The notes below the pieces were generated by a model. The model was not told the DNA's origin and ran no database searches. It saw nothing but the letters and a program-made list of their open reading frames with translations. From a virus, in the IMG/VR virus record IMGVR_UViG_3300032086_004119, positions 1 through 52,011 of that record: 52,011 nucleotides of DNA, one strand, 5' to 3'. Position 1 is the first letter of the stretch, and each line of letters opens with the position of its first letter. Shown here piece by piece: positions 4,394 through 51,661 of the stretch. The position numbers were made by a program, and so were the translations under genes.

Positions 4394-4490
4394 TTTATCT
4401 GTTCCTTAGTGTTACCAGCGAGGCTCATCCTCGCCATGGGTGGATCTTACACGATTCTGAATCGAAAGGCGAAGCCTATGTTGTGTCATA
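4394..4490 (-). promoter_or_regulatory. Promoter-leader unit A
   Basis: Reading the minus strand: TATGACAC (4483-4490), then after 33 nt a -10-like TAAGAT (4444-4449). A weak -35-like TTCGCC (4468-4473) stands 18 nt from it. The palindrome CGATTCAGAATCG overlaps the spacer. The 5' leader then forms a stem GCGAGG/CCTCGC (4418-4434) and ends with AAGGAACAG before the start codon. Units B and C share the order and spacing. Confidence 0.7.
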
Positions 4491-4516
4491 AAAAAAAAGG
4501 GGGGCTTTCGCCCCCC
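4489..4516 (-). terminator. Intrinsic terminator after the 4528-5028 gene
   Basis: The minus-strand hairpin GGGGGGC-GAAA-GCCCCCC (4499-4516) is followed by a run of nine T. The GAAA tetraloop and pure GC stem are almost identical to the hairpins at 5122-5150 and 7416-7437. The T-run leads directly into the TATGACAC octamer of the next unit. Confidence 0.85.
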
Positions 4517-5028: not shown

Positions 5029-5123
5029 TATCTGTTCCTTGATGTTACCGGCGAGGTTCATCCCCGCCATGGGTGCAGTCTACACGATTCTGGTTCAAAA
5101 GGTGAAGCCTATCGTGTGTCATA
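5029..5123 (-). promoter_or_regulatory. Promoter-leader unit B
   Basis: Same architecture as unit A: TATGACAC at 5116-5123, 33 nt, -10-like TAGACT (5077-5082), and a weak TTCACC 18 nt upstream of it. The leader stem is GCGGGG/CCTCGC (5051-5067), closed by one G-U pair in RNA. AAGGAACAGATA stands before the start codon at 5028. Confidence 0.7.
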
Positions 5124-5150
5124 AAAAAGGGGGGGGCTTTCGCCCCCCCC
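5122..5150 (-). terminator. Intrinsic terminator after the 5158-5925 gene
   Basis: The minus-strand hairpin GGGGGGGC-GAAA-GCCCCCCC is followed by six T, directly abutting the TATGACAC of unit B. It has the same tetraloop and stem design as the terminator at 4489-4516. Confidence 0.85.
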
Positions 5151-5157
5151 TGATGTT

Positions 5158-5925
5158 TTAGCTGTGAATCAGCTTGGCCTTTGAGGGGCGAGAAAAGAAG
5201 CCGAAATGGCCATCGTCCTTTGACTTCTCAACTCGAGCTGTAAACGTAATCGTGTCGCCCTTCTCGCAAGGCACTGGCTGAGTGCCGTAGACCTTCCGGC
5301 CATCAGCCAATTGGACGAGAACTTTCCATGTTGATCCATAGCCATTCTCCCTGCACTTGCGAGATATCACAGTGCCGGTGATCTCGTAGCGGCCCTCGTC
5401 CAGTTCAGCCACTCCTGCCATTGCTTCTGCGTTCTGCTCTTCGCGCTGCTTCAAAGAGGCTGCGAAGCTGATCTGCTTTGGCGACAGCTCGCCCCATTTC
5501 GCCAACCGCTTGTGCATGTCCTTGCCGATGCGATTCTTGGTCTCGCTCATCCAACGAATCACTTCCTGATTCTCTGCACTCTGGGCATCGACGAATCGGC
5601 TCACCTTGGCTTTTGCCGCTACGCGCTTTTTCAGTCTGCCGGTGGCGTAGTTGATGTCGAGAGATTGCGCGAGTTGCAGATCAGTCGCGCAACGACTTCC
5701 GAGGTCGTACAGCTCTCCGGTAGGGCGATGCACGACAATGGTGTTATACTTCACCTTTTGATTGCAGCATGCACAGCGAAAAGTCGGTTCCTTCCTTCTG
5801 TTTTCCCACCACTGGTTGTACAGGTCGTCATTCCAGATTTCCACTTCTGGATCTTGGCCTCCCACCGTGACGGCAACGAGGTCGAATTGGTTTGCTGGAA
5901 TCTGCTTGAATTGTGCTGGTGTCAT
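5158..5925 (-). CDS. Zinc-binding protein with OB-like C-terminal domain, unknown role
   Basis: A 255-residue protein from ATG 5925, directly behind leader C. Residues about 51-80 contain CACCNQKV followed by GSRCATDLQ, a probable zinc-binding module; residues about 95-170 are basic and helical. The last 80 residues form a beta-rich domain (TWKVLVQLADGRKV, KGDTITFTARVEKS, SRPSKAKL) that parallels the C-terminus of the protein at 3440-4393. I infer two paralogues with different zinc-binding N-termini, perhaps single-strand nucleic-acid binders. Its ribosome binding site, start codon and first two further codons are complementary to a segment in the upstream terminator loop (6039-6060). Confidence 0.75.
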   Translation of the reverse strand: MTPAQFKQIPANQFDLVAVTVGGQDPEVEIWNDDLYNQWWENRRKEPTFRCACCNQKVKYNTIVVHRPTGELYDLGSRCATDLQLAQSLDINYATGRLKKRVAAKAKVSRFVDAQSAENQEVIRWMSETKNRIGKDMHKRLAKWGELSPKQISFAASLKQREEQNAEAMAGVAELDEGRYEITGTVISRKCRENGYGSTWKVLVQLADGRKVYGTQPVPCEKGDTITFTARVEKSKDDGHFGFFSRPSKAKLIHS

Positions 5926-6018
5926 TATCTGTTCCTTGGTTACCAGCGGGGTTCATCCCCGCCATGGGTGGATCTTAAACGATTCTGGCTCAAAAGGTGA
6001 AGCCTATCGTGTGTCATA
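5926..6018 (-). promoter_or_regulatory. Promoter-leader unit C
   Basis: TATGACAC at 6011-6018 is followed after 33 nt by -10-like TAAGAT (5972-5977), with TTCACC 18 nt upstream of it. The leader has a perfect stem GCGGGG/CCCCGC (5946-5962) around an ATGAA loop and then AAGGAACAGATAATG. Comparison with units A and B shows an A-U to G-U to G-C series at one stem pair. Confidence 0.75.
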
Positions 6019-6066
6019 AAAAAACCCGGTGATGCCGCAGGAACAGATAATCGCGACACCACCGGG
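6018..6066 (-). terminator. Terminator whose loop carries an anti-leader sequence
   Basis: Arms CCCGGTG/CACCGGG (6060-6066 and 6025-6031 in minus-strand order) are followed by seven T. The unusually large loop (28 nt) contains, on the transcribed strand, ATTATCTGTTCCT (complement of 6039-6051). This is the exact complement of the conserved leader segment AGGAACAGATAAT. With a 3-nt bulge (CGC) the complementarity extends through GACACC of the downstream gene. Confidence 0.75.
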
Positions 6067-6087: not shown

Positions 6088-6285
6088 TCAACCGAATATT
6101 GCGTCTTGGCAGCTTTGGCAAAACCCGCTGATCGAAAACTCCTTCAGGCTTAAAGCATCATCGAAGCTCGTGGCCTTTTGACCGCATCGGGTGCATACCC
6201 AATTGCGAATACTTTCACGCCGATCTACGCCACTCAATCCCTTCAACTGATTCTCAACCTCTTGCGTTTTCCATGTCGGCTTCAT
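6088..6285 (-). CDS. 65-residue zinc-ribbon protein
   Basis: It starts at ATG 6285, behind GAGGGATGT and overlapping the stop of the previous gene by 4 nt; the longer frame would run deep into that gene. Two pairs CTRC and CQSC, about 24 residues apart, form a compact zinc ribbon near the C-terminus after a charged N-terminal helix. Small proteins of this plan are common in phage early regions, with roles from transcription modulation to unknown. It is the last gene of its unit and precedes the terminator at 6018-6066. Confidence 0.7.
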   Translation of the reverse strand: MKPTWKTQEVENQLKGLSGVDRRESIRNWVCTRCGQKATSFDDALSLKEFSISGFCQSCQDAIFG

Positions 6286-6671
6286 ACATCCCTCACTTTC
6301 ACGATGTCGTGATAATCCATACTGCAAAGTGCAAGTACCTCTCTGGACGCATTGCTGGTAACCTCTGCGAACCTCACAGCTCCCAGAGCATGCCCCTGAA
6401 TGTACTCCGGGCGAATACTACTGAACAGCATCTCTGCATCGATCTTCACCCAGTCCTCGACATTCAACGCGCCCTCGACGATGTAGCTACAGGCCATCCA
6501 TGTTCCTGCCTCATTCGCAGTCATTGCATAGGTTGCGCCTTCAGGAGTAAACGCCTTGCGATGCAAACGCTCCTCCTTCCTGCAAACTTTTTCGATTGCA
6601 TCGAAATGCTTTGCGCTCACCGCTGACCGAATTTGCCGTCGCGCCTCTTTAACTCTATCCTTCAACTTCAC
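6282..6671 (-). CDS. Unknown 129-residue protein
   Basis: It starts at ATG 6671, overlapping the stop of the preceding gene by 4 nt, with GGAGGTGACG-type spacing. The N-terminus is strongly basic and helical (KDRVKEARRQIRSAVSAKHF). The remainder is mixed with no metal-binding or catalytic signature that I recognise. It is translationally coupled to both neighbours, which supports it as a real member of this early-type operon. Confidence 0.65.
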   Translation of the reverse strand: MKLKDRVKEARRQIRSAVSAKHFDAIEKVCRKEERLHRKAFTPEGATYAMTANEAGTWMACSYIVEGALNVEDWVKIDAEMLFSSIRPEYIQGHALGAVRFAEVTSNASREVLALCSMDYHDIVKVRDV

Positions 6672-6957: not shown

Positions 6958-7395
6958 CTACTTGTGTGTTTCTGTTACATAATTACGCCAACTTAGTGGC
7001 GCGTCACGGTGTTCGAATTCAAATGCATCGCATGCATCCTCAAAGCTATCTCCGCATGCGCCGGAGATATACTTCCCGGACACATATATCTGGTAGCAAG
7101 CCCTACTGTTGACCCACCGACAGGTGATCTTTTTGCCGACAGGCCAATCCGAACGATGCCTTTGTCCAGCCAACTCGTTACGCCACTCCTTGAGCCTTTC
7201 CACCCCTCGCAAAATGGTGATGGGCAGAACGTCGCGGTCGGTCAAAGTCTGTCCACAGAAATTGCGCTCGGCAACATACCTGCGACGGACTACCTCGCCT
7301 TTTGAATTGTACGTCGTAAGAACGTCGACAACCGTGCTTACGTTTTCGCTGTCCCGGATATACTGTGTTCCAATTTTAATATCTTCTGATGTCAT
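6958..7395 (-). CDS. Unknown 145-residue protein, KOW/tudor-like beta N-terminus possible
   Basis: It starts at ATG 7395 behind the conserved AAGGAACAGATA ribosome binding site. The first 60 residues look beta-rich (KIGTQYIRDSENVSTVVDVL, then a charged turn and YVAERNF). The C-terminal part contains four cysteines in KKITCRW, SRACYQ, SGACGDSFEDACDAF. I do not recognise a family. Between it and the upstream gene is a G/C hairpin but no promoter, so it is probably expressed from unit D. Confidence 0.65.
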   Translation of the reverse strand: MTSEDIKIGTQYIRDSENVSTVVDVLTTYNSKGEVVRRRYVAERNFCGQTLTDRDVLPITILRGVERLKEWRNELAGQRHRSDWPVGKKITCRWVNSRACYQIYVSGKYISGACGDSFEDACDAFEFEHRDAPLSWRNYVTETHK

Positions 7396-7446
7396 TATCT
7401 GTTCCTTATTTTGCAGGGGGGGCTTTCGCCCCCCCCCTTGGGTTTG
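7396..7446 (-). other. Intercistronic GC hairpin and conserved RBS (leader E)
   Basis: The minus strand carries GGGGGGGC-GAAA-GCCCCCCC (7416-7437), the same hairpin as the two terminators but followed by TGCAAAATAAGG rather than a T-run. It is therefore unlikely to terminate efficiently. The segment AGGAACAGATAAT (7394-7406) is identical to leaders B, C and D. The hairpin may stabilise the downstream message end. Confidence 0.6.
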
Positions 7447-7902
7447 TTAAATATCAATCTCATCAGTTCCGGCTACGCCATTCACACTGGCAAGCCACTT
7501 CCGGCCTTCGCGATCTTTGTCGATAAAAATGTCGGTTACGATAATTCTACGACGCTCAAGATCGGGCAAAACTACCCGCAAAGGCCGACTCGAAATGCAA
7601 CTGCCCAACGTCAACTCGTTGATCAGCGTTACACCATCGTTGCATTTGAAAACGTAAAATACCCGCAACCTTTTCTCGCGCTCATCGCGCTCATCGTAAC
7701 CGTACACCAACTCGTCGCAGGTGAAGCATGCCAAAACTTCACCATGGCCGGGTGTTACCGTACCCGGCTGTGCATTTTTGATTTCCCATGAAGCGTCAAA
7801 ACCTTCTCCGAAATTTTCACGGTTAGCGAATTTTAAAGCATCCTCAACGGTGCTGTGCAGTTTGATCTCAAATGTTTTTTCTGGCTTTACTGTATTCTTC
7901 AT
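7447..7902 (-). CDS. Unknown 151-residue protein under leader D
   Basis: It starts at ATG 7902, directly after the conserved AAGGAACAGATA; the in-frame extension to 7998 would cover the leader. The protein is acidic to neutral. It has CFTCDELVYGYDERDERE in the middle (one C-x2-C pair), beta-rich C-terminal segments, and ends in GTDEIDI. No family is recognised. It is the first gene of the unit running to 6088. Confidence 0.65.
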   Translation of the reverse strand: MKNTVKPEKTFEIKLHSTVEDALKFANRENFGEGFDASWEIKNAQPGTVTPGHGEVLACFTCDELVYGYDERDEREKRLRVFYVFKCNDGVTLINELTLGSCISSRPLRVVLPDLERRRIIVTDIFIDKDREGRKWLASVNGVAGTDEIDI

Positions 7903-7999
7903 TATCTGTTCCTTAGTTTCACCAGAGGGGTCATTCCCGCTGGCGATGTGTAGACACTGCCACAGCTCCCCCCAAGGGGCAACGCCATGCTGTGTCATA
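7903..7999 (-). promoter_or_regulatory. Divergent promoter-leader unit D
   Basis: TATGACAC at 7992-7999 begins the unit immediately after the primase-helicase stop. The leader keeps the stem-loop around an ATGA loop (GGGAATGACCC within a longer CCAG/CTGG-closed stem) and the identical AAGGAACAGATAATG. The middle is different: a G/C-rich hairpin and GTGTCTACAC replace the -10-like block, which is offset by about 4 nt. It may be a weaker or differently regulated member of the family. Confidence 0.55.
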
Positions 8000-8001
8000 A
8001 A

Positions 8002-10005
8002 TCAGGAAGATAATTTCATCTCGATTTCCATCTCATGAGCCTTCTGCTTTTGACTCGGAAGGTAAACAAACGCCTTCCTTCTCTGCCCGGAAATTGGCTC
8101 GCCAACAACGATTGCACCGTCGCTCGCCAGCTTGGCCTTTATGTTTTTTGCAGTGCCGTTGGACACATCAAAATGATTCTGAATCTGATCGATGAAATGT
8201 CGAACCCCGAAAATTGGCCCGGTATCCATCAGCAACTTTTCTACCTGATGACGATCCTCGACGTGATCTCTGTCACCAGCCTTTTTCTTTCGAGCCGACG
8301 ACGTGGTCTCCGCTATAGGTGGATGACTCGTTCGCTCGAGTACACAATTTTCGAACACTGCGGTGAACGCATCAGGAGACTTGTAGTTTCGATTCAGGAT
8401 GTCGACAACGATTGCGTTTTCAACTTCTGCGTGATGAGTGAGCGTCATGACTGTGTCAACTGCTCGCACTCCAGTGTTCGATCCCGAGCCACGATCTCGC
8501 GTGTCTCGATCACCCGGTTTGCCTTTCGCATCATGATGGCTGTAGACCAACGCGCAACCGACCTCCTCCATGATCGTGTCGAAAAACATCATCAAGTCGT
8601 TCATGACCTCTGCGTCGTTTTCGCTTCCATCGATGATCGAGTAGAGCGGATCAATGATCACCACGTCGGCTTGTATTTGATCAGCCTTGTTGATGATCGC
8701 TTTCCGCATGTTCGTCACTCGCTGACCTCGAGCATTGACGATGTGAAAATTTTCCATCAGCTCTGGTTTGTTTAAGCCTGACCCCCGGACGAATGCCGAG
8801 TACCTTTCCTGCTGCCATTTCTGTTTCACCTCAAACTGTATAAGCAAAACTTTTCGCGCAACCGGAACTTCGAGACCGAGGAAGTCAGTGCCTGTAGCTA
8901 TGCACATCGCCATCTGCTGAAGCATCCAAGACTTGTAACTTTTCGACGGCGCGATCAGCGTCATCTTATCCATCTTCTCGAACAGAAAATCGATGACCGG
9001 ATCTTTCGGTTCTCGCTCCATTCCGAAAAATGTTTTGCCATCAAAACTGATCAAGCCATCCTGCTCTGCGACCTCTCGGGTAACTATAGCTTGCGGCATC
9101 CTCCAACCTGCGTTCTGGGCGAGATGGAAAAGACTTTCAATTTCAATTTTCGAATTGCCTTTGCCAAAACTTTTCCAGACGCGACTGAGATCCTGTTCGT
9201 CGAACTTGTTTCCAGTGTCGTGAAGGTCACTCCACTCTCGCCAAATCTGGTATCCGGCAAACGATGGATAGCGAGCATGTATCGCCATACCCATTCTCAA
9301 CCAAACGTCTCGATCATCCGGGGACACCCAGCAGAGCGCATCCCTGATCTCGGCGGCTCTTTCGTTTGTCATCAGGATGTCGAGGGCATCGGCGTGATCT
9401 GATTGCTGTACAGGTTCAGGCAGATGCTCTGCCATGCTGTAGCGTCGAAACGTCCTCGCCTTTTCGTTTTCCACCAAATTGCTATCCCAACTCGTGAATC
9501 GAAGACGGTTCTCATTCTTGCCCGAGGGGTCAGCATTCAGTCCGTAGTTCGCTCTGAAGTACCCGGCGAGACCTCGCCATGCGTCGGCATGCCTCGCGCT
9601 GTCGATCAACACAATCGCAGCCAGACCCTTCCCGCTCGCAGTGATGAAGGCACACCGAACGAACTCGTCCTGACCGAGCTGGTCGATCAGATCGGGCGCA
9701 CCATCCAGAACAGGATTGTCTTGCAGGTCGAAGTCCATGCAGATCAAACCACTGTGCTGGATTCGATTTTCGATGTGATGACCACCCTGAAAAGTTCCCG
9801 ACACCGTGAAGCAGGGCAGAGTGTTTTTGGCGGCACTTCCAGAACGAACTTTCGCGACCTGCGTTTGATGCTCACCGCCAGAAACCATCTCGATGAATGA
9901 CTCAAGAGATACCGTCTCAGGATTTTTCGACGACAAATGATCGAACATTGAAAAGCTGTATTCCTGCACGACTTCACCACGCTGTGTACACCAATCAATT
10001 CTCAT
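8002..10005 (-). CDS. Primase-helicase (VirE_N/BT4734-like, PriCT-2, RepA-like ATPase)
   Basis: A 667-residue protein. I start it at ATG 10005 behind GGAGGG, overlapping the helicase stop by 11 nt. Residues about 60-200 resemble the BT4734/VirE_N primase-like domain (DFD at 91-93, then ASGKGLAAIV and NRLRFTSWDSN). Residues about 230-320 match a PriCT-2 region (WVSPDDRDVWLRMGMAIHAR). From about 345 there is a RecA/RepA-type hexameric helicase core. Its Walker A variant is APSKSYKS (352-359) and its Walker B is ADVVIIDP (D452), followed by SHHDAKGK. It probably primes and unwinds during phage replication. No phage DNA polymerase is visible, so it would recruit the host enzyme. Confidence 0.85.
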   Translation of the reverse strand: MRIDWCTQRGEVVQEYSFSMFDHLSSKNPETVSLESFIEMVSGGEHQTQVAKVRSGSAAKNTLPCFTVSGTFQGGHHIENRIQHSGLICMDFDLQDNPVLDGAPDLIDQLGQDEFVRCAFITASGKGLAAIVLIDSARHADAWRGLAGYFRANYGLNADPSGKNENRLRFTSWDSNLVENEKARTFRRYSMAEHLPEPVQQSDHADALDILMTNERAAEIRDALCWVSPDDRDVWLRMGMAIHARYPSFAGYQIWREWSDLHDTGNKFDEQDLSRVWKSFGKGNSKIEIESLFHLAQNAGWRMPQAIVTREVAEQDGLISFDGKTFFGMEREPKDPVIDFLFEKMDKMTLIAPSKSYKSWMLQQMAMCIATGTDFLGLEVPVARKVLLIQFEVKQKWQQERYSAFVRGSGLNKPELMENFHIVNARGQRVTNMRKAIINKADQIQADVVIIDPLYSIIDGSENDAEVMNDLMMFFDTIMEEVGCALVYSHHDAKGKPGDRDTRDRGSGSNTGVRAVDTVMTLTHHAEVENAIVVDILNRNYKSPDAFTAVFENCVLERTSHPPIAETTSSARKKKAGDRDHVEDRHQVEKLLMDTGPIFGVRHFIDQIQNHFDVSNGTAKNIKAKLASDGAIVVGEPISGQRRKAFVYLPSQKQKAHEMEIEMKLSS

Positions 10006-11638
10006 TAAGCATGCCCTCCAGTGCTGTGGGTAGGAAATGATGACCAACCACGTTCCTCCACTTGCCGTCCTGCTCGACACAAATGTATTTTGGCTTCGGC
10101 CAAAGGGTGTTCAAGGCTTGATCTAAACTCATGTCGAAATCATATCCTCTATCCTTCGCCCATTGGCGAGCTTTTTTGGCGGCGTAACCTCGCTGGCCAA
10201 AGCACACCCACTCTCTCGGGGGGTTATCCCCAAAGCTCCCAAAATGCGCTGTACTGTCATCTGAGAGCTTGTAGGTCACACGCATGCTCACATTGCCATT
10301 GCGCGACGTATGCGGCTCATACCTCACGTCATCGACAGCATGCCATATTTGCGCTCGTGGCCTCTCCCGGAGGATCTCCTCGACACTGGCGGTCTCGTCA
10401 AAAGGCTTTTGCTCCCGAGCAGGATAAACATAATTGCAATGCTCGCAGACTCTCGCTGTGGCAGGGATCAGCACCTCACACGCTGGACAGGATTTGGCAG
10501 AACTCTTGTTCTTTTTCTTGCCCTCGCCATCACCTTTCACTGAGAGCGCATTTAAAGGGCCGTGGCGAACGACATTTCCACCATAGTCAAGTACTAGGCA
10601 ATCCTCTTTGCCCTCGGCAGGGCGCAAGCCACGGCCTACCATCTGCACATACAGGGCTGTACTCTCCGTCGCTCGAATAATAACGATGCAATCGATTCCG
10701 GGAGCGTCAAAACCAGTCGTGAAAACGCCGACGTTTATCAGGTGTGTAAGCTCACCCGTCCTGATGGCCTCCACGATCTCTCTACGCTCCTGTGCGGGGG
10801 TTTTGCCGGTAACCGTAGCCACCTGCCCTGCCGGAATTCCACGCCCTACAAGCTCCTCATGGACGTTCTCCGCGTGTGCTATCGACGCGCAAAAGATCAG
10901 CTTGCGTCGACCTTCCCCCCGAGCAATCATATCGGTGATGGTAGCGGTGACCAGCTCTGGCTGATCGAACGCCGCAGCCATCTCTCCCTGATTGAAATCA
11001 TGACCTGTCCTCCTGACCTGCGAGAGGTCTGCACAGCCTTTTTTGTCTCCGCACATCGGCACTGGTTTAACCAGATACCCTCTGTCGATCAGCGTCCTGA
11101 TTTCTGTCTCGTGCGAGGGGCCACTAAATATTGCGTCGTCGCCATCCCAGAGATATCCCTGATTCAATCGAAACGGTGTGGCCGTGAACCCCACGACATC
11201 GAGATCAGGATTGACCTCCTTCATGGAGTCGATGAATGATCGATACCTTCCCTGCTGCCGGGTGTTGATGAGGTGGCATTCATCGACGATGATGCGATCT
11301 ATCTTGCCAAACAATTCATGCTTGCCAAACACACTCTGGATGCCGCCGCAAATGATCCTGTTGTCAGTGTCTCGACACTTCAGACCTGCGGAATAAATTC
11401 CTACATCGAGATCAGGATTGATCGACTTCATTGCTCGATAATTTTGCTCGATCAATTCCTTCACATGAGTCAGCATCATGAATCTGAAATCGGATCGGCG
11501 AGTGACGTGCGCGGCGATCACAACGCTCTTGCCAGCACCTGTCGGCTCAACCAAAACTGGATTGCCACCCTTCTCATCGACATACCTGTCGATGGAGTTC
11601 TCTGCGTCTTGCTGATAATCTCGTAGCTCAATCTGCAT
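9995..11638 (-). CDS. Superfamily 2 DNA helicase
   Basis: A 547-residue protein with a complete SF2 core. It has the Q-motif-like LRDYQQDA, Walker A PTGAGKS (32-38), DECH box (119-122), GFTATPFR (motif III region), motif V NVGVFTTGFDAPGID and motif VI QMVGRGLRP. A zinc ribbon CPAC...CEHC follows at about residues 385-405, and a C-terminal accessory domain comes after it. The layout matches phage type III restriction-like/UvsW-like helicases acting in replication fork repair or recombination. It overlaps the nuclease upstream (11 nt) and the primase-helicase downstream (11 nt), so the three are co-translated. Confidence 0.93.
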   Translation of the reverse strand: MQIELRDYQQDAENSIDRYVDEKGGNPVLVEPTGAGKSVVIAAHVTRRSDFRFMMLTHVKELIEQNYRAMKSINPDLDVGIYSAGLKCRDTDNRIICGGIQSVFGKHELFGKIDRIIVDECHLINTRQQGRYRSFIDSMKEVNPDLDVVGFTATPFRLNQGYLWDGDDAIFSGPSHETEIRTLIDRGYLVKPVPMCGDKKGCADLSQVRRTGHDFNQGEMAAAFDQPELVTATITDMIARGEGRRKLIFCASIAHAENVHEELVGRGIPAGQVATVTGKTPAQERREIVEAIRTGELTHLINVGVFTTGFDAPGIDCIVIIRATESTALYVQMVGRGLRPAEGKEDCLVLDYGGNVVRHGPLNALSVKGDGEGKKKNKSSAKSCPACEVLIPATARVCEHCNYVYPAREQKPFDETASVEEILRERPRAQIWHAVDDVRYEPHTSRNGNVSMRVTYKLSDDSTAHFGSFGDNPPREWVCFGQRGYAAKKARQWAKDRGYDFDMSLDQALNTLWPKPKYICVEQDGKWRNVVGHHFLPTALEGMLNEN

Positions 11639-13196: not shown

Positions 13197-13970
13197 CTAC
13201 TTTCCTTCCTTGTTTATGTTTTCAGTTAAATCTTTCCACGTCTTCAGCGGGAGTTCAGGTGGCAGAGAGTCACGGTTTTTCGCTTCAAAAGCTGGACGCT
13301 GCTCTGTGTAGATGACTCGGTCACCTTCACCAACTGCCCGTGTCCGCTGATTGCCAAAACCCTCATCCTCTTTCACGGTGTAAGTCTTGTAGGTAACGAA
13401 GAGCAATGCATCGCACCACTCCTTGACAGCGTCTGCCGCCTTGCGATGAAGGCGTGGCTCGTAACGATCAAACGACTCACTGTCAGGTGGCTCATGCTTT
13501 TTGACAGTATCGTGCGCGATCAGAATTACGTTCATGCCTCGCTCACTTCGCAACTTGTCGAAGCCCCGGAGAAGATGCCGCCACTCTGCCGTAGCGTAGG
13601 TGTATCCCTTGCCGAATCCGTAGCCTTCAATGTCGGTTACCTCTCTGCCTTTGTCGTCGACCGGGCGCGTGTCGATGACTCTTTGCCATAGCAGTGGCTC
13701 CAATCGAGTCAGTCCGTCGACGACGACGGTTTTATATTTGTGGTCCTCTGTTAACAACCACTTTACCTGTTGAGCTACATCGTCATAGCTCTCGCAGATG
13801 CCGAAGCTGTTCAACTTCAGGTTGCCGTCGCCCTCTTCAGTCTGAATGAAGAACGGTGAAGGTGCGGTGTGCGCGAGCGTAGTTTTACCTACGCCTCCCA
13901 CTCCGTACACCACGACACGGCGAGGCGCGTCCTTGGTTGGTTTTTTTAGTGTTCCAAGCTTGATAGCCAT
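13197..13970 (-). CDS. Sak4-like RecA-fold ATPase (phage nucleotide-binding protein)
   Basis: A 257-residue single-domain P-loop protein. It has Walker A GVGGVGKTT (23-31), Walker B-like KTVVVDGLTRLEP, the sensor strand NVILIAHDTV, and a C-terminal VKEWCDALLFVTYKT strand. The lack of a RecA N- or C-terminal domain and the pairing with a DUF669-type protein match Sak4 single-strand annealing/recombination proteins. It would support homologous recombination and replication restart of phage DNA. It belongs to the operon started by the promoter at 14548-14577. Confidence 0.85.
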   Translation of the reverse strand: MAIKLGTLKKPTKDAPRRVVVYGVGGVGKTTLAHTAPSPFFIQTEEGDGNLKLNSFGICESYDDVAQQVKWLLTEDHKYKTVVVDGLTRLEPLLWQRVIDTRPVDDKGREVTDIEGYGFGKGYTYATAEWRHLLRGFDKLRSERGMNVILIAHDTVKKHEPPDSESFDRYEPRLHRKAADAVKEWCDALLFVTYKTYTVKEDEGFGNQRTRAVGEGDRVIYTEQRPAFEAKNRDSLPPELPLKTWKDLTENINKEGK

Positions 13971-14622: not shown

Positions 14623-14802
14623 CTACGACTCTTCCGGTGATTCAGATGCATCTTGTTTACGCATGAGGGCGATTAGTTCGTCGACAAATTTATCTCTCTG
14701 ATCTCCGCTCATTTGAACGGCCAAATCATGAGGTTCAAAACCTCCGTTTTCAGTGTCAGAGCTGGATTCCGCGACTCTCTGCGATTGTTCTAAATTCTTC
14801 AT
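14623..14802 (-). CDS. 59-residue acidic protein overlapping the giant gene's end
   Basis: It runs from ATG 14802 to TAG 14623, out of frame with and overlapping the last 47 nt of the 2563-residue gene. GAAGAG lies about 10 nt upstream. The product begins MKNLEQSQRVAESS and continues with an amphipathic, acidic helix (RDKFVDELIALMRKQ). Composition and overlap style match its neighbours, but the length is small and the function unknown. It is the final gene of the virion unit. Confidence 0.55.
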   Translation of the reverse strand: MKNLEQSQRVAESSSDTENGGFEPHDLAVQMSGDQRDKFVDELIALMRKQDASESPEES

Positions 14803-17800
14803 TATAACTACTCTTCAAGTTGGATTCGTCTTCGCCTCTGAGCTTTGCCCAAAGATCTTTTTCTGGATACCAGAGGATGGCTTGAATGTCAGCATTTGTG
14901 GTCGACATTCCATCAGATTCCAATCGCGCTCTCACCTTGTTTACAATCCTGCTTATTACTTCGCGATCCTGATCGCTCGGAACATCCACAGGCTTGACCG
15001 AATTTGCCAGCACTGTAGCGGCTTTTGCCCACTCAGGCTTCCCGTCGTTTACATCATCTTTGTTTATAACCGCATCGTAGCCAAGCTTACGCAATCGATC
15101 TGCTCGATATTCACCGACCTTCTTCTTCTTCTTAGATTCTTTTGATAGAGATTTATAGTCCTTGTTTATTTTGTCTATTACACGCTTATTACTTTTAGCA
15201 ATTTCCTCAAGAGTCATTTGTCCAGATTTCAGCTTATCTAAATTTTCTCTTGTAGTAGAAACTACTTTTTTAATCTTACCGCTTTCTGGATCTATAGTAT
15301 CTATTTGCAATGATCGATACAATGCTTGCCAATCGGCTGCGATTTTTATGGAGTCTTGAATGATTGACTCGCCCCATTCAGCATCGTTTTCTATTCTAAA
15401 TACAACTTGATCGCTGACGCTTTTGTACGCGGTTCCGCTCTTGCGATAGCGAGTAACTGTACGCATGCCCTTCAAGCTTTCAGGCAATCTTTTAGCATCA
15501 CGCAATGCATCGATCAAACGCGCCAGACGTTCGTCTGTAACCCCCGGCCCAAGAACATCGCCTGTCCACCTACCCCAAGTACGTCGCATCCAAAGATCTA
15601 TTGTGACGGGATCGTAATTGCCTAAAAGATTTTGTAAAAATCCTTGCCCGATTTTAGGCCCAAAAATAGCTGCGCCCTGCACGACATCTTCTTTACGTCC
15701 AGCGATTGTAACCTTTTTGCCACTGACCTTTGCAGCCGCAGCTTCCAGCTCTTTTACTGAAAATGTTTTGCCAATAAATGTCTCAAGCTCCTGCCACCCG
15801 ACTTTGTCAATCATCCTGTTGGCAAGGTCGAGATTACCACTTATTGATGACGCCTTCTCACCATACTCTTTAGAAGGATCAAATTTTCCGGTTTTTGCAA
15901 TAGCCGCAAACTGCTCTTCAGCAAATCTGCTATTTAACTTAACACTCAAGTTTTGAGATGTTGCCGCCATGGCTATGAACATGGCCATTTTGGCTGCGCT
16001 CGAATTAGGGAATCCACTGGCTTTAGCCGCTTCATCGTCGACAAGCTCTGGATGGATCTTGCCCATAATTTCAATCGCTTCGCGCACGTCTTCGGTGTAC
16101 CAATCGGCAGCATCCTTGCCGTCTGCTTGAAGAGCCGCATAAACTTCTGACACTGCTATGTCGACGATTTCGTCCTCTACCCCTTCTCGCTGATCGATAT
16201 TAGAACTTGTAACGATTTCGCCATCCCAATAATTTTCCGCAGTCGACTGTATCTGCTTTGCCACTTTAGAATTTGAAACTTTCTTCTCCGGTTTCGGCAA
16301 AACATCTGAATCGTTGTAGAGTACGTTGACCGCGCCCTGCGGGGCAGATACCGCACCCGGCTCAAATCTGTCCCCTGACCTTTCGCTTTCGATTTCTGCA
16401 AAAACATTATCACTGCTGATCGTTAAATCCTCTGGAGATAATATTACAATTTCATTTGGAAGACCATCACCTGAGTCACGATCTCCGTCGTAAATGTGAA
16501 TCGAATCATAGCCATCTTCGATAAGTGAATTTTTCGCCTCTTCAGTTATCAGTCTGGGGAATTCAGAAAAACCCTCTCCATATGTTTCATTTGCCCAGTC
16601 TCTGGTGTCGGCATCCCATACAAGAGGGGATTTAGCTTTTGAGTAAGCTTTTATGACCCGCTCTCCTTGAGACTTTTTATTGTGGTAGGCTGGAGTGTTT
16701 TGCGGGTCTGGACTCAAGAAGATAACACTACCTGAAGGCCCAACCAATGTCCGAGTCCTTCCCTGATCATCTACCCAACTTTCTGTTGATGGGTCAGCTC
16801 CACCCGGAAGGAACTCATCAAAAGCCGACCACGTCTTGTGATATAGCGGAGTGCTTACATCAAAACCGTTCTCCTTTGCTTTTGATTCAGTTGCAGTGTG
16901 CGGCTCAAACCTCTCCTTCAAAACGCCTTTGCTTTGCAACTGCGCCTTCTGCTGATCGGGAACTGCCTGAACCTCGCCTGATGTAAATTTACCAGCAGAA
17001 ATTTCAGCCACTGCGTCTAAAGCAAACTCTAACAAGCTGACTTCCTTACCCGGTTTCAAGTTCATCATCTCAGCGATTGCATCGACAATAACCTGCCAAA
17101 GATTTCTGCGAGCTTCAGGCACTTCTATCTGACGCAATGCGTCTTGCAAGTTTTCATCACTCATTACAGCGGCGATAAACTCATGAGTATTCGCCAACTC
17201 ATAAAGACCTCCCTGTGCATCAGCCTTATCAGCGTCAACAGCTTGATCTCCGAGCATCGGTTGAGAAATTCTTCTCTTGGTGATGAACGGCACTACTGCT
17301 GGGTCGCCAGCAGATTCGTCATAGAACTCATCCTGATTTAACCAGTCTTGAACATACTCTTTCGGAATTTTGACAGCATACTTGCCTTCGCCAATAATCT
17401 CTATGTCGACATCTTTTGCTGATCCACCGATGGCATTCATCGATCTTGCAACGTCCATCGCGAGAGACATTATTTGTTGCTTGGAATCAGCAGTTACAAC
17501 ATGTCCTTTTTCCAAAAGATTTTCTAGCCGTGATCCACCATAAACTAACTCACTCTCATAAGTTATGGTTGTATTGCCCTTCATGAAAGGAGCAACTTCA
17601 TCCAGAGCTTTTAGGTATGCATACTCCAATCGCTCAAACGCATCACCATCAACATCCGCTGAACGCTTAATCGCGTCGAGATATTCTCTGCCTGACTTTT
17701 TGCGATACCCTCTTTCGACTGCACGTTTTGCCAATCTTCCAGAAGTGTATACATGAGAGACCTCATGCAGGATTGTAGACTCAGGACTTTTCGGTTTTAC

Positions 17801-20800
17801 CTGAACAGATACTGGGCGATTCGTTGAAAAATAATGACCCGGTCTTTCATCCTTCGACTCCATGATCAACTTGCCAGCTTTGTTAGTCCATACAGTGTTT
17901 CGCATTGGACTTCTGTTTACAGCTTTGTCGAGAGCTTTCGCTATTGGTGCGAGCCTGTTATCTGAATTGCCAATCATCTGAAGCGATTCGCTTACGGTCT
18001 TCCCCTCCACATCACTGCCGCGAATTTGTCCGGGTACACCCGGCTGAAAACGCTCAGTCTCTACGTCTTCGCTTGATTCAAAGATTTTATCTTTAATCCA
18101 CATAGCAGCATCGCGCATCTCATCAGGATTCGAAAAATCAACAATTCGGCTTCCAGTCACTTTGCCAAATTCTTTTTCTCTCAGCGGAGATACTTCATGG
18201 TCTCTTATAGAAAACTTTTGATCACCAATCTCAACGTAGATGCTTCCACCTGCCGCCCTGAATGATCGACCTTTCACACCACGATTGCTAGGGTTCAAGA
18301 TATCAACATAATCATTTATAGATGATAAACTTTGATCACCCTGATCAACAGATGAATAATCTTCATCCAGAATTGTTTCCAGCTCGCTTATGGCATCCGA
18401 TAAAGAATCAAATTCATAAGTTCTATCTTCTATTGAAAAGTTAGCGGAGCCATCTGTGTTTTCGTAAACAAGTGGAGCTGTGAATTCTGATCCGTCATTC
18501 TTCCGAAACAATTGCTTATTCAAAACGTCTGCATAGACTGAAGCAACATCAGAATCAGGATTGTCATCTAAAGCGTCTTGTAAAAGTTCATCATCAGGCT
18601 CGAGCTTTACTTTGCTTTGAGAGTCAACGTCCGCAGAACTTTTTACACTTGCGTCGTACCACTCCTGCACGTCATTTGTAAAATTATCTAATTGTAACTG
18701 TTGCTCTTGCTTGAGCTTTGCTGCTTCGGCATCTGCTTTGTCTTGGGCTTGCTGGTCGAGTCGCTTGAAGGCTTCATCAATCTGCCTATTGATACGGCTT
18801 GCCGCGAGGGTGTTGTTTCCGCTGAGATGGTCTCTAAGCTCTCCAAGTAAGCCCCTATAATCTTCCTCCGATGGGAATTCGATAGTTGTTGCTCGCCGCT
18901 CTTTTCCTCGGTAGTTAATGTTCTGTTCGAATGTTGATATTTTTCTCGCGTCATCTTCTGACAAAGCTCCTAGAATTAAAACATTATTCATTTCATCGAT
19001 GGTGTATCCAGCACCTAAACCAAATTGGTTGGTCTTGTCTACCGCATCCTGCAACTCTTGCTTGCTCCCAAAGGTGTACCTGAACTCTGCATGCTCGCCA
19101 TCAGGACTTTCGGTGGACAGGTAAATCCCTTGCTGAATTCCTCCGGGGGCCAGCGCACCGACCAAAGCGGCAAAGCCTTTAACAAGCACAGGATCAGCAT
19201 CGTCGATCTCAATCAAACGAGAAGGTTCGACAATGTTTTTATTCACGTCTGTATCGAACCATCCACCAATTGCATCAATGTTTCGCTGAGTCCCAAGTCC
19301 AAGATCTCTGGCTATATCTTGAGAGATTTTTCTGAAGTCTTCTGCCTCTGGACTTTGTTGAGCATCTCGGATCTCTTCCAGAGTTTCTCCTTGGGCATTG
19401 CGGAATGGTGCAGCACCAACTGTCGGAGGCACAAACCTTCCTTGCTCGTATCGTCTCGATGCCATGCCGTAGTCAAAAGCCAAAGCTCTGCCTTCGACTT
19501 CTTTAATACTGGCAATGCGATCAATGCGCCTCGCTCGAACGAGAGAACCCTCGCGACCGCTTTCAAATCCCCCTTCGTCCTTCACACCAAGAAAGTCAAA
19601 AATCTCCTGTGCCATCTGGCGAGCGACTCTCGGATTCGGATCGAGGTCTGTAGCACCCGGCAAGCCATTCATATGGTTATTAAATAGCTGTGCAGTTTTC
19701 TCTACGAATCCTTCAGGGCCATTGAATAGATCGAATTTTTTTATGCCGTTCTTACGAGCTAAAGTCTTCCTGATTTTTTCATAAAAGTGTCCATGCTCGA
19801 ACGTCACGCCAAACAAGTTACCCGCTTTAGCTTGTCGCAAGCTTAGAAATGTAACTTCTGGAGTCGACATGGGAATTCGACTGCTGTACTTGCCCCTTTT
19901 AATTGCGGCAAAATACTCAAGACGAAACGGCTTCCCTGTCTTGTCGTTTATAGAGTCGACGACAGAGCGAAGAGTTTTCTTTATGCTGTCAGGTATGCTC
20001 GGATTGAGATCTACAAGATCTAAAGTCTCTTCATCAATTTTGCCAGAAAAGGATTCATCATCATTGTAGCTCAACTCTGAATCGTCTGCATTTAAAATGG
20101 TCTCGTGCAAAGCTTCGTTAATTTGCTTGGCCGCTTTATCTCGCTCTGATTTGGTCATGGCGATAGGCTTGCCATCAAGACCACGCTTGATCGTTCCATC
20201 GGGATTGACCTTAAACAGAGTGCCTTTGGTGGCTTCGAGTTTTCGCTCGCTACCAATCAGGTCATCAGGCGTAAGCATCACAGACTTATCTTCTGCTTGA
20301 GATGCCACGAATCTTTTGACCTGCTTGTTTCTCAGGTTGACGTAATCAATAATTACTCTGTCGACTGCTCGGCTCTTCTTTAGCTTTCCGAATACATCTG
20401 AGTCGACTGTGACAGGATTGCCGTTCGCATCCAGCACTGTGCCGTCAGGACTCATCTCGATACCCATGGCCTGAAGACCTCGAGCCATAAAATTCAAACG
20501 CTCGTTAACAATGTCTTTGACCGTTCCAAAACCAAGTCGCTGTTTTTTATTGAGACGCTTGCCGGTCAGGATCGACTTCACATGTTCCGCTGCCACCTCG
20601 TGGAAGATGTCATTCCATCTGTCTACTGTAGTTTGTTGCGTAGTTAGATCTGCACCAGTTCGCCCAAGACGCTTATTGTACTCGACTTCAAGTTGAACCA
20701 GCTCCTCTGGTGTATACAAGCCACCAGTAGGTCTTCCATTTTCATCAAAGTCGCCGATGAGTTCTCTGCGAAGACGCGCACCAAGACCGATCACATCTCC

Positions 20801-22447
20801 GTCTGCGTCTTCCAAATCAATGAGCGCATGCGTCATTTCATGGACAGGCGTACCCTCGCCAGCCACATCTGCGTTGATGTATATCTGAGGCTTACCGCTT
20901 ACCATGCGTGAGACACCGCCAGTGTTGGCTCGCTCATCACCAACGATTTTTGCATACTCGTCCTGACGCAGGTAAGTTATGTTTGCGTCCGATCCAGAGT
21001 CGGCCATCGCGCCTCTTAAAAACACTTCGAGGGCGGCTGCGTTCAAAAGTTTTTTAGAGTCCCCGCCACTCCACTTCATCAAAGCATCTTGCTCTGCTTC
21101 GCTTTTTGTCGCGACATAACGCATCGCCGACTCATTCGCGATTCTCGCTCGCTCAACAGGATTAACTTTTTCGTTTACGAATCCAGCGGTTGCCCCACCG
21201 GCTCCGAACAAAGCACCTTCGCCAACCTCCTGACCGATCTCTCCCCAGTCATCCAGAGCTATGCCCATCAAAACAAGATCTGATGCTCCACCGGCTGCGG
21301 CTCCAGCTACAAACCGAGCGGGAAAATCTCTTCCGGGTATTCGGTTAAAAATTCTGTACCCAGCGGCAGCGACCGGGCTGTCAGTAACGCGAGCGGCAGC
21401 TTCTGCTGCGCTCATTACCTGCGCCCCTACAACGCGCTGACCCTTGCCGATGTCTTCGAGAACTTTTCCCGCCACCTTTGACGCACCAGTTACCTGTGCT
21501 AAACCGCGAATGATATCATTGCTCACAAAGCCTGTAGCAAGCAGTGTCAAATAGGAGGTTACCTGCGCGGCCTTGGCCGAATCATTGATTCCCATTTGTT
21601 TTAAAAGTGCTGATGATGCGTCAGCGACTCTTTCCGCTGTGGCCACCATTTTATTCGCAGGAACCTGCGCTGCGCGACCGACGCGCTCTGCTGCTGGAGC
21701 AATAACCTTTCGACCAACACCGCCGATGTTCTGAGCGGCCTTCAGTCCAGCACCCGCAGGAAGAACATTTTGAGGATCTAAAGGCTCCATCAAAAGTGCT
21801 ATGTCTTCGTCGACCGGAACGGCATTGTCTATAAGGTCGTTCGCTACATCATTAAAACCCAAGCTGGCAAGAATCGTTGCCACGCTCATGATCGAAGCAC
21901 CGGCAGGATCACTTGAAAACAACTCCTGCTCACGGCGACGTTTGTGTCTCGCCTTAAATCGCTCGAAGTCTGCCTCTTCGTCAGTAGAGACCAAGCTTGC
22001 CAAGCCACTTCCGAAATTTCGAACTATCGGCCCCATCTCCTGAATGTTTCCGACCACTCCTGATGACATGCTCGCGAGCGTAGTGTCCAGCGGAGTTTCT
22101 GGAAGCTTTTTCAAACCGCGCACCATGCCGGTCGCCAAATCGTACATGCCCTCTTTTACACCCATCTCAAATTCAGACGCCCTCTCAAGAAGAGGCTGAT
22201 TGCGATAGTGATTGAACATGATTCGATAATCGTTATCGGTCAGCTCATGATATGGGTTGGTGCGATTCTTTTCTATCTCCTCTTGTACCTGCTGAAAGGT
22301 TTCATTCGGAGGTCTTTTCAATTCCTCCTTGGCCTTGCGAAGCTCTTCACTTCTAGCAATCTTAGGAATAAGATTTTGTACTTCCTCTTCGCTTAACCCA
22401 TCAGGAATTTTGACCGGGCCAACACCTTCAATATTAATTTCTGCCAT
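14756..22447 (-). CDS. Giant 2563-residue ejection/polyvalent protein with two zincin motifs and an ART-like domain
   Basis: It opens with the IEGVGPVKIPDGLSEEEVQN segment typical of phage internal virion proteins. Residues about 379-445 are hydrophobic and Ala/Gly-rich and could enter a membrane. A first zinc-peptidase site HEMTH is at 536-540, with a later IFHEVAAEH helix. A second, HEVSH, is at 1561-1565, followed by an ELANTHEFIAAVMSD segment as in phage-type zincins. Residues about 1855-2010 resemble an ADP-ribosyltransferase of the polyvalent type (YHKT at 1869-1872, glutamate E1999 in NEIVILSP). The last 500 residues are a further conserved-looking helical region ending in Lys-rich sequence. 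Proteins of this kind are packaged in the capsid and injected with DNA to act on host defence or envelope. As the last long gene of the tail/ejection block, it fits that role. Activities are inferred from motifs. Confidence 0.85.
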   Translation of the reverse strand: MAEINIEGVGPVKIPDGLSEEEVQNLIPKIARSEELRKAKEELKRPPNETFQQVQEEIEKNRTNPYHELTDNDYRIMFNHYRNQPLLERASEFEMGVKEGMYDLATGMVRGLKKLPETPLDTTLASMSSGVVGNIQEMGPIVRNFGSGLASLVSTDEEADFERFKARHKRRREQELFSSDPAGASIMSVATILASLGFNDVANDLIDNAVPVDEDIALLMEPLDPQNVLPAGAGLKAAQNIGGVGRKVIAPAAERVGRAAQVPANKMVATAERVADASSALLKQMGINDSAKAAQVTSYLTLLATGFVSNDIIRGLAQVTGASKVAGKVLEDIGKGQRVVGAQVMSAAEAAARVTDSPVAAAGYRIFNRIPGRDFPARFVAGAAAGGASDLVLMGIALDDWGEIGQEVGEGALFGAGGATAGFVNEKVNPVERARIANESAMRYVATKSEAEQDALMKWSGGDSKKLLNAAALEVFLRGAMADSGSDANITYLRQDEYAKIVGDERANTGGVSRMVSGKPQIYINADVAGEGTPVHEMTHALIDLEDADGDVIGLGARLRRELIGDFDENGRPTGGLYTPEELVQLEVEYNKRLGRTGADLTTQQTTVDRWNDIFHEVAAEHVKSILTGKRLNKKQRLGFGTVKDIVNERLNFMARGLQAMGIEMSPDGTVLDANGNPVTVDSDVFGKLKKSRAVDRVIIDYVNLRNKQVKRFVASQAEDKSVMLTPDDLIGSERKLEATKGTLFKVNPDGTIKRGLDGKPIAMTKSERDKAAKQINEALHETILNADDSELSYNDDESFSGKIDEETLDLVDLNPSIPDSIKKTLRSVVDSINDKTGKPFRLEYFAAIKRGKYSSRIPMSTPEVTFLSLRQAKAGNLFGVTFEHGHFYEKIRKTLARKNGIKKFDLFNGPEGFVEKTAQLFNNHMNGLPGATDLDPNPRVARQMAQEIFDFLGVKDEGGFESGREGSLVRARRIDRIASIKEVEGRALAFDYGMASRRYEQGRFVPPTVGAAPFRNAQGETLEEIRDAQQSPEAEDFRKISQDIARDLGLGTQRNIDAIGGWFDTDVNKNIVEPSRLIEIDDADPVLVKGFAALVGALAPGGIQQGIYLSTESPDGEHAEFRYTFGSKQELQDAVDKTNQFGLGAGYTIDEMNNVLILGALSEDDARKISTFEQNINYRGKERRATTIEFPSEEDYRGLLGELRDHLSGNNTLAASRINRQIDEAFKRLDQQAQDKADAEAAKLKQEQQLQLDNFTNDVQEWYDASVKSSADVDSQSKVKLEPDDELLQDALDDNPDSDVASVYADVLNKQLFRKNDGSEFTAPLVYENTDGSANFSIEDRTYEFDSLSDAISELETILDEDYSSVDQGDQSLSSINDYVDILNPSNRGVKGRSFRAAGGSIYVEIGDQKFSIRDHEVSPLREKEFGKVTGSRIVDFSNPDEMRDAAMWIKDKIFESSEDVETERFQPGVPGQIRGSDVEGKTVSESLQMIGNSDNRLAPIAKALDKAVNRSPMRNTVWTNKAGKLIMESKDERPGHYFSTNRPVSVQVKPKSPESTILHEVSHVYTSGRLAKRAVERGYRKKSGREYLDAIKRSADVDGDAFERLEYAYLKALDEVAPFMKGNTTITYESELVYGGSRLENLLEKGHVVTADSKQQIMSLAMDVARSMNAIGGSAKDVDIEIIGEGKYAVKIPKEYVQDWLNQDEFYDESAGDPAVVPFITKRRISQPMLGDQAVDADKADAQGGLYELANTHEFIAAVMSDENLQDALRQIEVPEARRNLWQVIVDAIAEMMNLKPGKEVSLLEFALDAVAEISAGKFTSGEVQAVPDQQKAQLQSKGVLKERFEPHTATESKAKENGFDVSTPLYHKTWSAFDEFLPGGADPSTESWVDDQGRTRTLVGPSGSVIFLSPDPQNTPAYHNKKSQGERVIKAYSKAKSPLVWDADTRDWANETYGEGFSEFPRLITEEAKNSLIEDGYDSIHIYDGDRDSGDGLPNEIVILSPEDLTISSDNVFAEIESERSGDRFEPGAVSAPQGAVNVLYNDSDVLPKPEKKVSNSKVAKQIQSTAENYWDGEIVTSSNIDQREGVEDEIVDIAVSEVYAALQADGKDAADWYTEDVREAIEIMGKIHPELVDDEAAKASGFPNSSAAKMAMFIAMAATSQNLSVKLNSRFAEEQFAAIAKTGKFDPSKEYGEKASSISGNLDLANRMIDKVGWQELETFIGKTFSVKELEAAAAKVSGKKVTIAGRKEDVVQGAAIFGPKIGQGFLQNLLGNYDPVTIDLWMRRTWGRWTGDVLGPGVTDERLARLIDALRDAKRLPESLKGMRTVTRYRKSGTAYKSVSDQVVFRIENDAEWGESIIQDSIKIAADWQALYRSLQIDTIDPESGKIKKVVSTTRENLDKLKSGQMTLEEIAKSNKRVIDKINKDYKSLSKESKKKKKVGEYRADRLRKLGYDAVINKDDVNDGKPEWAKAATVLANSVKPVDVPSDQDREVISRIVNKVRARLESDGMSTTNADIQAILWYPEKDLWAKLRGEDESNLKSSYNEEFRTIAESRGIQL

Positions 22448-34185: not shown

Positions 34186-35970
34186 TTAAACCGCTTCTAC
34201 AGACAGGACGCCATCGCCACTGGTGCAACTTACAGCCACACCTGTGAACTCGACAACGAGGGTCGGATCAGCATAGCTCTGAACTGAGCCAATGCGCGTT
34301 CCAACAACGTCACCGAAGTTAACCGATACGTCATCTCCAGCCACGACTCCGAGTCCAGCGACATCAACTTCCAATGCGCTGGTGAATCCAGCGGCAGGTG
34401 TTGCGGACGCACACGCGAGAGGCGTGGGGTCTTCAGCAGGACACTCGCAAGTAGCGTCGGCAGGATCAGCAGGAACTGCACCTGACACCACCTCGAGAAT
34501 CTCGATGGGGCCACCACAGCATCCGCAGGTAACAGCTTCATCAAACTCGAAGCCGTAGCGATGCGGTTGACCAGCAACTGCAAACTGACCAGTGATGGTC
34601 GCCAACTTGGTAGAACGATCACCGAACTTGACGGTGGCCTGTGTCCAACCAGCGGGTAACGCTTCGGTAAGATTGATCAGAAGGGTGTTGTCATCAACGC
34701 CCTGAACACAACCATTAGGTGTTTCCACTTTGATCGACTCCGGTGCGGTAGGTGTAGTGTAGTTACTCAAGAATGCTCCCTTGATGAATGAATCACGATG
34801 CAAACGCTCTACGAGGATAACGCCGCCACGATCTGCATACATCGGAAGAGAAGCCTGTTCGAGCTTCGCTCGAAACTGACCTTTGTTTCCGTCTTTGTTA
34901 CAGTCGTTATCTTGGACGTTGTTCCAGTACGGCATGCCCGTGTAATTCTGCGGCTTGAACGTCATCGGGCCAACTTGCGCGATGGCATTCGGAACGAGAA
35001 TCTCGAGAGACATGCTGTTCGGGAAATAAACTTCCTCGTAAGGAGCTTGTGTAGGATCTACATACTCAGGATTGTCAATTGAGTACTCACCCTTCTTGCC
35101 TTCGCTGACAGTAATCCGAGGCTGAACCTGAACAAGCTCACCAGTGATCTGGTCGACCTTGTAACGATTCGGGTAACGAATTGTTGATGCAACGAAGTTG
35201 CCCACGCGAGTTGTGCCACCGCCAATGGGGTTCAGCAACTGCGAAGGATTCGCTTCGAGAATGATCTGCTTGTAATCAGGATCGATATGAATCAGATCTT
35301 CATACATCTCATCACCGATAATCATTTGAAGCAACGGTGCATTGTTGATCATTCCAGCGGGTGAATCACCTGCGTCATTGGAGCGAAGGCGAGAGTACAC
35401 ATCGCGAAGCATGCGAGGTGTAAGCATAGAAGTCGGGTACTGACCCTGCGGGTAGTCTCCGATTTCGCTCGGGTATCCCGGACGCGCAACCCAGTGAACA
35501 CTCACTTCTTTGAAAGCGTACTTCGTCCAATCGCGATCAGCGATACGAACATTCCGGCTCAAAGACTGCAAGTGACCGTTTGCGATACGAGCGCGAGCGA
35601 CTTTGTCACGCAACTCTTCCAGACATACGAATTCAGTTTCGAATCCTGTGCGAACCAGACAGGAACTGCGAAGCTCTTGCCCAATCTTTACAGTCTCATA
35701 ACTCCAATCGCAACTACGTCCGTTACACTGATCCGAACGAACCCAACGCGAGGGGTTATCATCAATATCAGCACTGCGGAAAATAAGTGCTTGGTTGTTT
35801 GCGGGTCCGTCTTCCCAAGAACGCCGCTTAAAAACACTACGCCATGGATTCTCGAGCATTGCCATCCGAGTGATCACCTTGTGATACTTCGGAGTTTCGC
35901 GAAGCAATTCATTGTTGGCGGCTTCGCAATCGCCAGACACTACTGTGCCAGTGTGAGGGCCATCAGCCAT
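34186..35970 (-). CDS. Major capsid protein candidate with C-terminal decoration domains
   Basis: A 594-residue protein, abundantly expressed by inference: its own strong promoter and GGAGAGAATAAAATG start. Residues 1-400 are mixed alpha/beta in the style of HK97-type or large podoviral capsid proteins (MAMLENPWRSVFKRRSWED, then NAPLLQMIIGDEMYEDLIHI). Beyond about 420 come one or two Ig-like beta domains with a Cys-rich joint (TCGCCGGPIEILE, ATCECPAEDPTPLACAS). It lies downstream of portal and scaffold and upstream of fibre-like genes. That, plus size and promoter, supports the call; no diagnostic motif exists. Confidence 0.7.
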   Translation of the reverse strand: MADGPHTGTVVSGDCEAANNELLRETPKYHKVITRMAMLENPWRSVFKRRSWEDGPANNQALIFRSADIDDNPSRWVRSDQCNGRSCDWSYETVKIGQELRSSCLVRTGFETEFVCLEELRDKVARARIANGHLQSLSRNVRIADRDWTKYAFKEVSVHWVARPGYPSEIGDYPQGQYPTSMLTPRMLRDVYSRLRSNDAGDSPAGMINNAPLLQMIIGDEMYEDLIHIDPDYKQIILEANPSQLLNPIGGGTTRVGNFVASTIRYPNRYKVDQITGELVQVQPRITVSEGKKGEYSIDNPEYVDPTQAPYEEVYFPNSMSLEILVPNAIAQVGPMTFKPQNYTGMPYWNNVQDNDCNKDGNKGQFRAKLEQASLPMYADRGGVILVERLHRDSFIKGAFLSNYTTPTAPESIKVETPNGCVQGVDDNTLLINLTEALPAGWTQATVKFGDRSTKLATITGQFAVAGQPHRYGFEFDEAVTCGCCGGPIEILEVVSGAVPADPADATCECPAEDPTPLACASATPAAGFTSALEVDVAGLGVVAGDDVSVNFGDVVGTRIGSVQSYADPTLVVEFTGVAVSCTSGDGVLSVEAV

Positions 35971-41129: not shown

Positions 41130-41424
41130 TTTCTATTTCCTTCTCTGTTTGTTTAACCTCGCCATCACTGTACGGGGGAGGTGGTTCAGCAAGTTGCGCC
41201 AGCGGCACACCCATAAGCTCAATGCTGTTCACCAGCATCTTAAAAGTTCGAGACTCCGCACTGTGAATCGTGCCATACTTCAAAACGTCTTCGTCAGGAT
41301 GGATCGTTAGCGAGGGATCACACGATCCAAGCGCATCTAAAAATGCTTGACCTAATTCGCTTTCTATAAATTGCCTGAACGGCTTTTGGAGTTCTGTTGT
41401 GGTGCGGAACTTATTTAGATTCAC
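41122..41424 (-). CDS. Unknown 100-residue protein between portal and scaffold
   Basis: I start it at GTG 41424, overlapping the last codons of portal; the longer frame to 41517 would run 107 nt into portal. It has a helical middle (FRQFIESELGQAFLDALGSC), a Pro-rich patch (AEPPPPYSDGE) and a charged tail. It overlaps the scaffold start by 8 nt. Small genes in this position often assist head assembly; here nothing identifies one. Confidence 0.6.
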   Translation of the reverse strand: MNLNKFRTTTELQKPFRQFIESELGQAFLDALGSCDPSLTIHPDEDVLKYGTIHSAESRTFKMLVNSIELMGVPLAQLAEPPPPYSDGEVKQTEKEIENG

Positions 41425-45469: not shown

Positions 45470-45571
45470 AAAACACTCCTAACTAACTAACAATTAACCA
45501 CCAGCACCTTACTGGCTTGGGGACAGTTTACACCAGTAGCATTCAATAAGGCAATTTGCTGGTGTGTCATA
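45470..45571 (-). promoter_or_regulatory. Promoter-leader unit before the portal block
   Basis: TATGACAC (45564-45571) follows the terL terminator. After exactly 33 nt comes -10-like TAAACT (45525-45530) with TTGCCT (45549-45554) 18 nt from it. The leader contains CCAG...CTGG and a tandem GTTA repeat and ends AGGAGTGTTTT before ATG 45469. The leader sequence is unrelated to units A-D but the promoter geometry is the same. Confidence 0.7.
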
Positions 45572-51658: not shown

Positions 51659-51661
51659 AAT

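Follow-up and report, generated by a model that had tools for sequence, protein, structure and literature searches.

Gene content of the virus record

The window analysed here is the entire 52,011-base record of an uncultured bacterial virus from IMG/VR. All clear genes are carried by the minus strand. A 300-nt direct repeat with 98% identity is present at the two ends (positions 1–300 and 51710–52009), so the record is probably near-complete. The terminal repeats are 98% and not 100% identical, as if the two ends came from slightly different copies or strains. Two minus-strand open reading frames define the locus of interest. The first (6088–6327) is the final gene of an upstream operon and matches phrog_19722 (E = 6e-8), while the second, gene C (5158–5925, 255 aa), is the predicted target of silencing and matches phrog_18425 (E = 1.9e-19) and phrog_4750 (E = 5.8e-17), both PHROGs of unknown function.

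Distant relatives were found for a DEAD helicase (9995–11638), a primase (8002–10080), an AAA ATPase (13197–13970) and a T5 A1-like DNA transfer protein (36147–37910). The large protein encoded at 45785–47758, the 786-aa protein at 41411–43771 and the 594-aa protein at 34186–35970 have no Pfam or PHROGs match, and the first of these also has no match among 50,697 phage records; from their size and position, they are probably the terminase, portal and capsid proteins. The virus represents a deep lineage. A single reading frame of 2563 aa (14756–22447, minus strand) takes up ∼15% of the genome, and a search for tRNA and tmRNA genes found none.

We found no relative when gene C, the primase, and the putative portal and terminase proteins were compared with IMG/VR, when the putative terminase was compared with GTDB genomes, when the window DNA and the putative terminase were compared with phage records, or in pattern searches with the leader and the promoter box; the collections searched may leave out near copies. 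A 16-mer leader search returned 92 loci with one match each; inspection of the three that have an additional, shorter match (L008, L067 and L069) revealed no leader cassette. A helicase profile search yielded 80 loci, the best of them 41% identical and none with the leader cassette genes, and Rfam contained no matching RNA family.

A terminator complementary to the gene C start

Read along the minus strand, the stop codon of the 6088–6327 gene is followed by a terminator, a TTTATGACACA box, a leader with a small hairpin, and AGGAACAGATAATG, which is the start of gene C. The terminator hairpin (6067–6024) comprises a 5′ arm (6067–6053), a 14-nt loop with the sequence GATTATCTGTTCCT (6052–6039) and a 3′ arm (6038–6024), the arms forming a 15-pair stem with three G-U pairs. 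The hairpin has a calculated fold of −29.2 kcal/mol (z = −3.65) and runs into a series of T residues (6018–6024) that merges with the TTTATGACACA box. By its pattern, the minus-strand hairpin with its T run (6067–6018) is a real intrinsic terminator of the upstream operon.

Two segments of this hairpin are complementary to the start of gene C. The first (ATTATCTGTTCCT, 6039–6051) lies in the loop and is the exact 13-nt complement of 5924–5936, the block AGGAACAGATAAT that extends from the Shine-Dalgarno sequence to the start codon; positions 6039–6051 of the plus strand therefore also read AGGAACAGATAAT, the reverse complement of 5924–5936. The second (TGGTGTC, 6055–6061) lies in the 5′ stem arm and is the exact 7-nt complement of 5917–5923 in the region of codons 2–4 (on the plus strand, GACACCA is the reverse complement of 5917–5923). 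A 3-nt insertion, CGC (6052–6054), separates the two. The original prediction described 13 + 6 base pairs interrupted by a single 3-nt insertion, with the complement in the terminator loop. The insertion is as described, the count was one pair short (13 + 7), and the loop holds the 13-nt segment, with the 7-nt segment in the stem.

Comparison with the other leader cassettes

In agreement with what the original prediction noted, leaders B, C, D and E all carry AGGAACAGATAAT unchanged, and A matches it at 12 of 13 positions; the block is invariant even in D and E, which share little else upstream. The 7-nt extension matches gene C and no other leader, as expected of an element that acts in cis. 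Because the loop complements the shared block and the stem arm adds a part found in C only, the anti-leader is best read as a cis element for gene C, with possible spill-over to the leader family.

Just upstream of the ribosome-binding site (RBS) of gene C, alignment and folding delineate the small leader hairpin GCGGGG-ATGAA-CCCCGC (5946–5962), which is kept in A as GCGAGG/CCTCGC. In cassettes A and B the terminator, and in D the hairpin ahead of the gene, has a GGGGGGGGCGAAAGCCCCCCC-type stem without an anti-leader, and this rules out the anti-leader as a common design of all cassettes. In cassette D (7395–7450, minus strand), the GGGGGGGGCGAAAGCCCCCCC hairpin stands directly before AAGGAACAGATAATG and is without a T run, promoter box or leader hairpin; it looks like a terminator fused to an RBS, perhaps by deletion.

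The TTTATGACACA box at gene C (6010–6020, minus strand) is repeated exactly at 4482–4492, 5115–5125, 7991–8001 and 45563–45573, and with one mismatch at 51650–51660. At cassettes A and B and at 45.56 kb, as at C, the T run of a terminator continues into the box. Reading by eye, we located a TAnnnT hexamer 31–32 nt downstream of the box in A, B and C and at 45.56 kb and 51.65 kb, and this arrangement suggests a candidate phage-specific promoter class. From this repeated upstream motif (the box at 6010–6020 with its TAnnnT hexamer) we infer promoter C. A variant of the box on the opposite strand, the tandem TTTATGACACG/CTTATGACACG, is present within the 300-nt terminal repeat (129–150 and 51838–51859, plus strand).

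Excess of the match over chance

The match between the terminator and gene C is the sole local inverted repeat of at least 24 nt within the window. When we compared the upstream complement of the RBS at 45 gene starts, gene C had by far the strongest (−33.8 kcal/mol; the mean was −16.3 kcal/mol with a standard deviation of 5.1, and the runner-up reached −27.7), and the longest exact complementary run at the other starts was 7 nt. Shuffling the letters of the terminator produced a 13-nt complement of the gene C start region five times in a million. We also surveyed 191 terminator-like hairpins from the window and 176 other viral or phage stretches (1.6 Mb). Only five of the 191 have a loop with a downstream complement of at least 9 nt (13 nt for this terminator and 9 nt for the other four), and among the sequences listed this terminator alone has its complement on a Shine-Dalgarno sequence and start codon. 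The uniqueness of the inverted repeat, the ranking among the 45 starts, the shuffles and the hairpin survey together rule out a chance origin. Something must therefore account for the match, be it selection or copying.

Predicted folding of the read-through RNA

For RNA that reads through the terminator, the predicted minimum free energy fold pairs the gene C RBS with the terminator (−62.0 kcal/mol), and the fold with an intact terminator and a free leader is at −56.0 kcal/mol, so that sequestration gains only ∼6 kcal/mol. The original prediction proposed folding this region and held that read-through would hide the gene C start. Across 30 choices of ends for the read-through RNA, the predicted pairing probability between RBS and terminator was 0.79–0.99 in 25, which favours the proposal. 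The exceptions were four RNAs ending at 5860 (0.09–0.66) and one ending at 5840 (0.56); in transcripts ending at 5860, the preference for the sequestered fold is weakened or reversed. By prediction, then, the longer upstream transcript has its RBS and start codon paired, as in T4-type sequestration.

The RBS is predicted to be ∼7–17% open in read-through RNA with its own terminator and 70–94% open when the terminator of cassette B is substituted, when there is no terminator, or when the RNA begins at the inferred promoter start. With shuffled terminators, it is on average 65–75% open, and none or one of 60 shuffles for each choice of ends closes it equally. Closing of the RBS in the model is thus a specific effect of the terminator sequence and not of any hairpin. 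In the model, however, the RBSs of E and of the 51.6-kb gene, both of which are without an anti-leader, likewise become less open on read-through; a decrease of this kind is thus not rare, and folding alone is for this reason weak evidence.

In favour of the proposal, the sequestered fold is predicted to take over once the RNA reaches 5918–5912. Against it, the RNA forms the terminator hairpin before the leader exists, and a nested refolding path out of that hairpin climbs a barrier of 21 kcal/mol (pseudoknots ignored). Sequestration would therefore need pairing to start from the loop: if the 14 open loop nucleotides paired first, a good part of the barrier would be bypassed, through a pseudoknot that is beyond the scoring of the program.

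A proposed read-through silencer acting in cis

The explanation we favour, at a probability of roughly 45%, is that the terminator doubles as a translational silencer of gene C on read-through RNA. RNA polymerase arriving from the operon above 6.08 kb would mostly halt at the hairpin (6067–6024). Where polymerase reads through, the RNA from the 6088–6327 gene would bear the silencer, with the 5′ arm and loop of the hairpin pairing with the Shine-Dalgarno sequence, start codon and codons 2–4 of gene C (13 + 7 bp). Leaky transcripts would hence yield no gene C protein, whereas transcripts would lack the complement and be translated if started at the gene's own putative promoter, which overlaps with the terminator's end. 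Antitermination in cis by the leader was considered and rejected, as the leader is transcribed after the terminator.

Other explanations

The chief rival is copying without selection, which we consider a genuine though doubtful possibility. Here, a strand switch during replication would have placed, farther upstream, an inverted copy of ∼23–40 nt from the start of gene C; this copy made or extended a hairpin by accident and now serves as a terminator only. The presence of the element in one cassette fits such an event, as does the C-specific 7-nt extension, which a local copy would carry. Weak ungapped similarity continues through the 3′ arm (41 nt, 71%), as in a longer copied tract, but stem pairing in part dictates this similarity outside the core. 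The gene start itself bears GCTGGT...ACCAGC around the RBS, and an inverted copy would therefore be a hairpin from birth. Against an unselected copy, the core is still matched at 13 of 13 and 7 of 7 positions although three gene cassettes have diverged to 67–81% identity, so either the copying is recent or the match has been held. The stem also retains its pairing, via G-U pairs, with a 5′ arm matching the gene.

Less likely is an anti-leader acting in trans, in which the released 3′-end hairpin, through its loop ATTATCTGTTCCT, would bind the start regions of leaders A–E and damp their genes, among them D and E, which head the same upstream operon. The loop is complementary to the RBS region of several targets (13 of 13 positions in four leaders and 12 of 13 in one), and its duplexes with B–E (−19.1 kcal/mol) and A (−17.6 kcal/mol) are the best sites on the whole minus strand. 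AGGAACAGATAAT is also the invariant block of B–E despite otherwise different upstream sequence in D and E, which gives the predicted pairing with a leader family part of its footing; a 13-nt block of Shine-Dalgarno sequence, spacer and start codon may, however, persist for ribosome binding or through recent duplication. Cofolding of hairpin and leader brings a gain in A, C and D, whereas B and E gain nothing, with pseudoknotted loop contacts lying outside the model. On balance we think this unlikely. Still more improbable is that one hairpin performs three jobs, ending the upstream operon, silencing gene C on read-through RNA and, as a released 3′ end, damping five leaders; if true, it would be a case of operon-to-operon translational control in a phage through a terminator loop.

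A role of the inverted repeat in DNA or on the plus strand (as a protein site, an origin element or a remnant of a plus-strand leader) is very improbable, for although the plus strand has a complete AGGAACAGATAAT block, no suitably placed start codon comes after it, Rfam gives no match and every clear gene is encoded by the minus strand.

Comparison with known systems

In IS10 and IS200, termination and a fold-back over the transposase RBS form two layers against outside transcription, and the two jobs are done by separate elements. The proposed silencer has the same two layers, but here one hairpin would do both.

Sequestration of an RBS in early but not late transcripts, to which the original prediction appealed, is classical in phage T4. 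For genes e, soc, 49 and I-TevI of T4 and mobE of Aeh1, the RBS is hidden in longer upstream transcripts, and in T4 the transcripts of the nearer, own promoter are without the 5′ strand of the sequestering hairpin (PMC3014915, PMC2988022). The gene C locus is alike in its longer transcript, which is predicted to hide the RBS, and would be alike in its shorter transcript if this begins at the putative nearer promoter and so lacks the sequestering strand. In T4, however, the hairpin is described as local, its 5′ strand lying within the late promoter or upstream of it, whereas here the sequestering strand is a terminator arm and loop ∼90 nt away and therefore competes with the terminator fold.

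In Listeria, a terminator loop of LhrC pairs with the Shine-Dalgarno region of lapB mRNA, as established by compensatory mutations (PMC4132741). Loop complementarity to Shine-Dalgarno regions is common to LhrC and the present terminator, but LhrC acts as a free-standing small RNA that carries three CU-rich sites, whereas here the complement is the 13-nt loop of an mRNA terminator and action in trans is hypothetical. In Staphylococcus aureus icaR, a segment at the mRNA 3′ end blocks initiation by base-pairing to the Shine-Dalgarno region (PMC3868564). There, UCCCCUG joins both ends of one mRNA, whereas here the complement is in a terminator and the target is the start of the next gene. The suggestion that a terminator loop directed against a family of leaders would be new was thus too strong, given read-through sequestration in T4 and the precedent of the LhrC loop (PMC4132741). 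What would be new, if real, is a single hairpin that both terminates and sequesters, as a switch between two strong folds.

Implications

If the phage uses the element in this way, the promoter from which a message originates would decide gene expression, through one compact element that both stops transcription and blocks translation of any leaked RNA. Such an element would also offer a simple, portable design for an insulator, and would provide a clear case for asking whether a downstream complement can open a preformed terminator hairpin.
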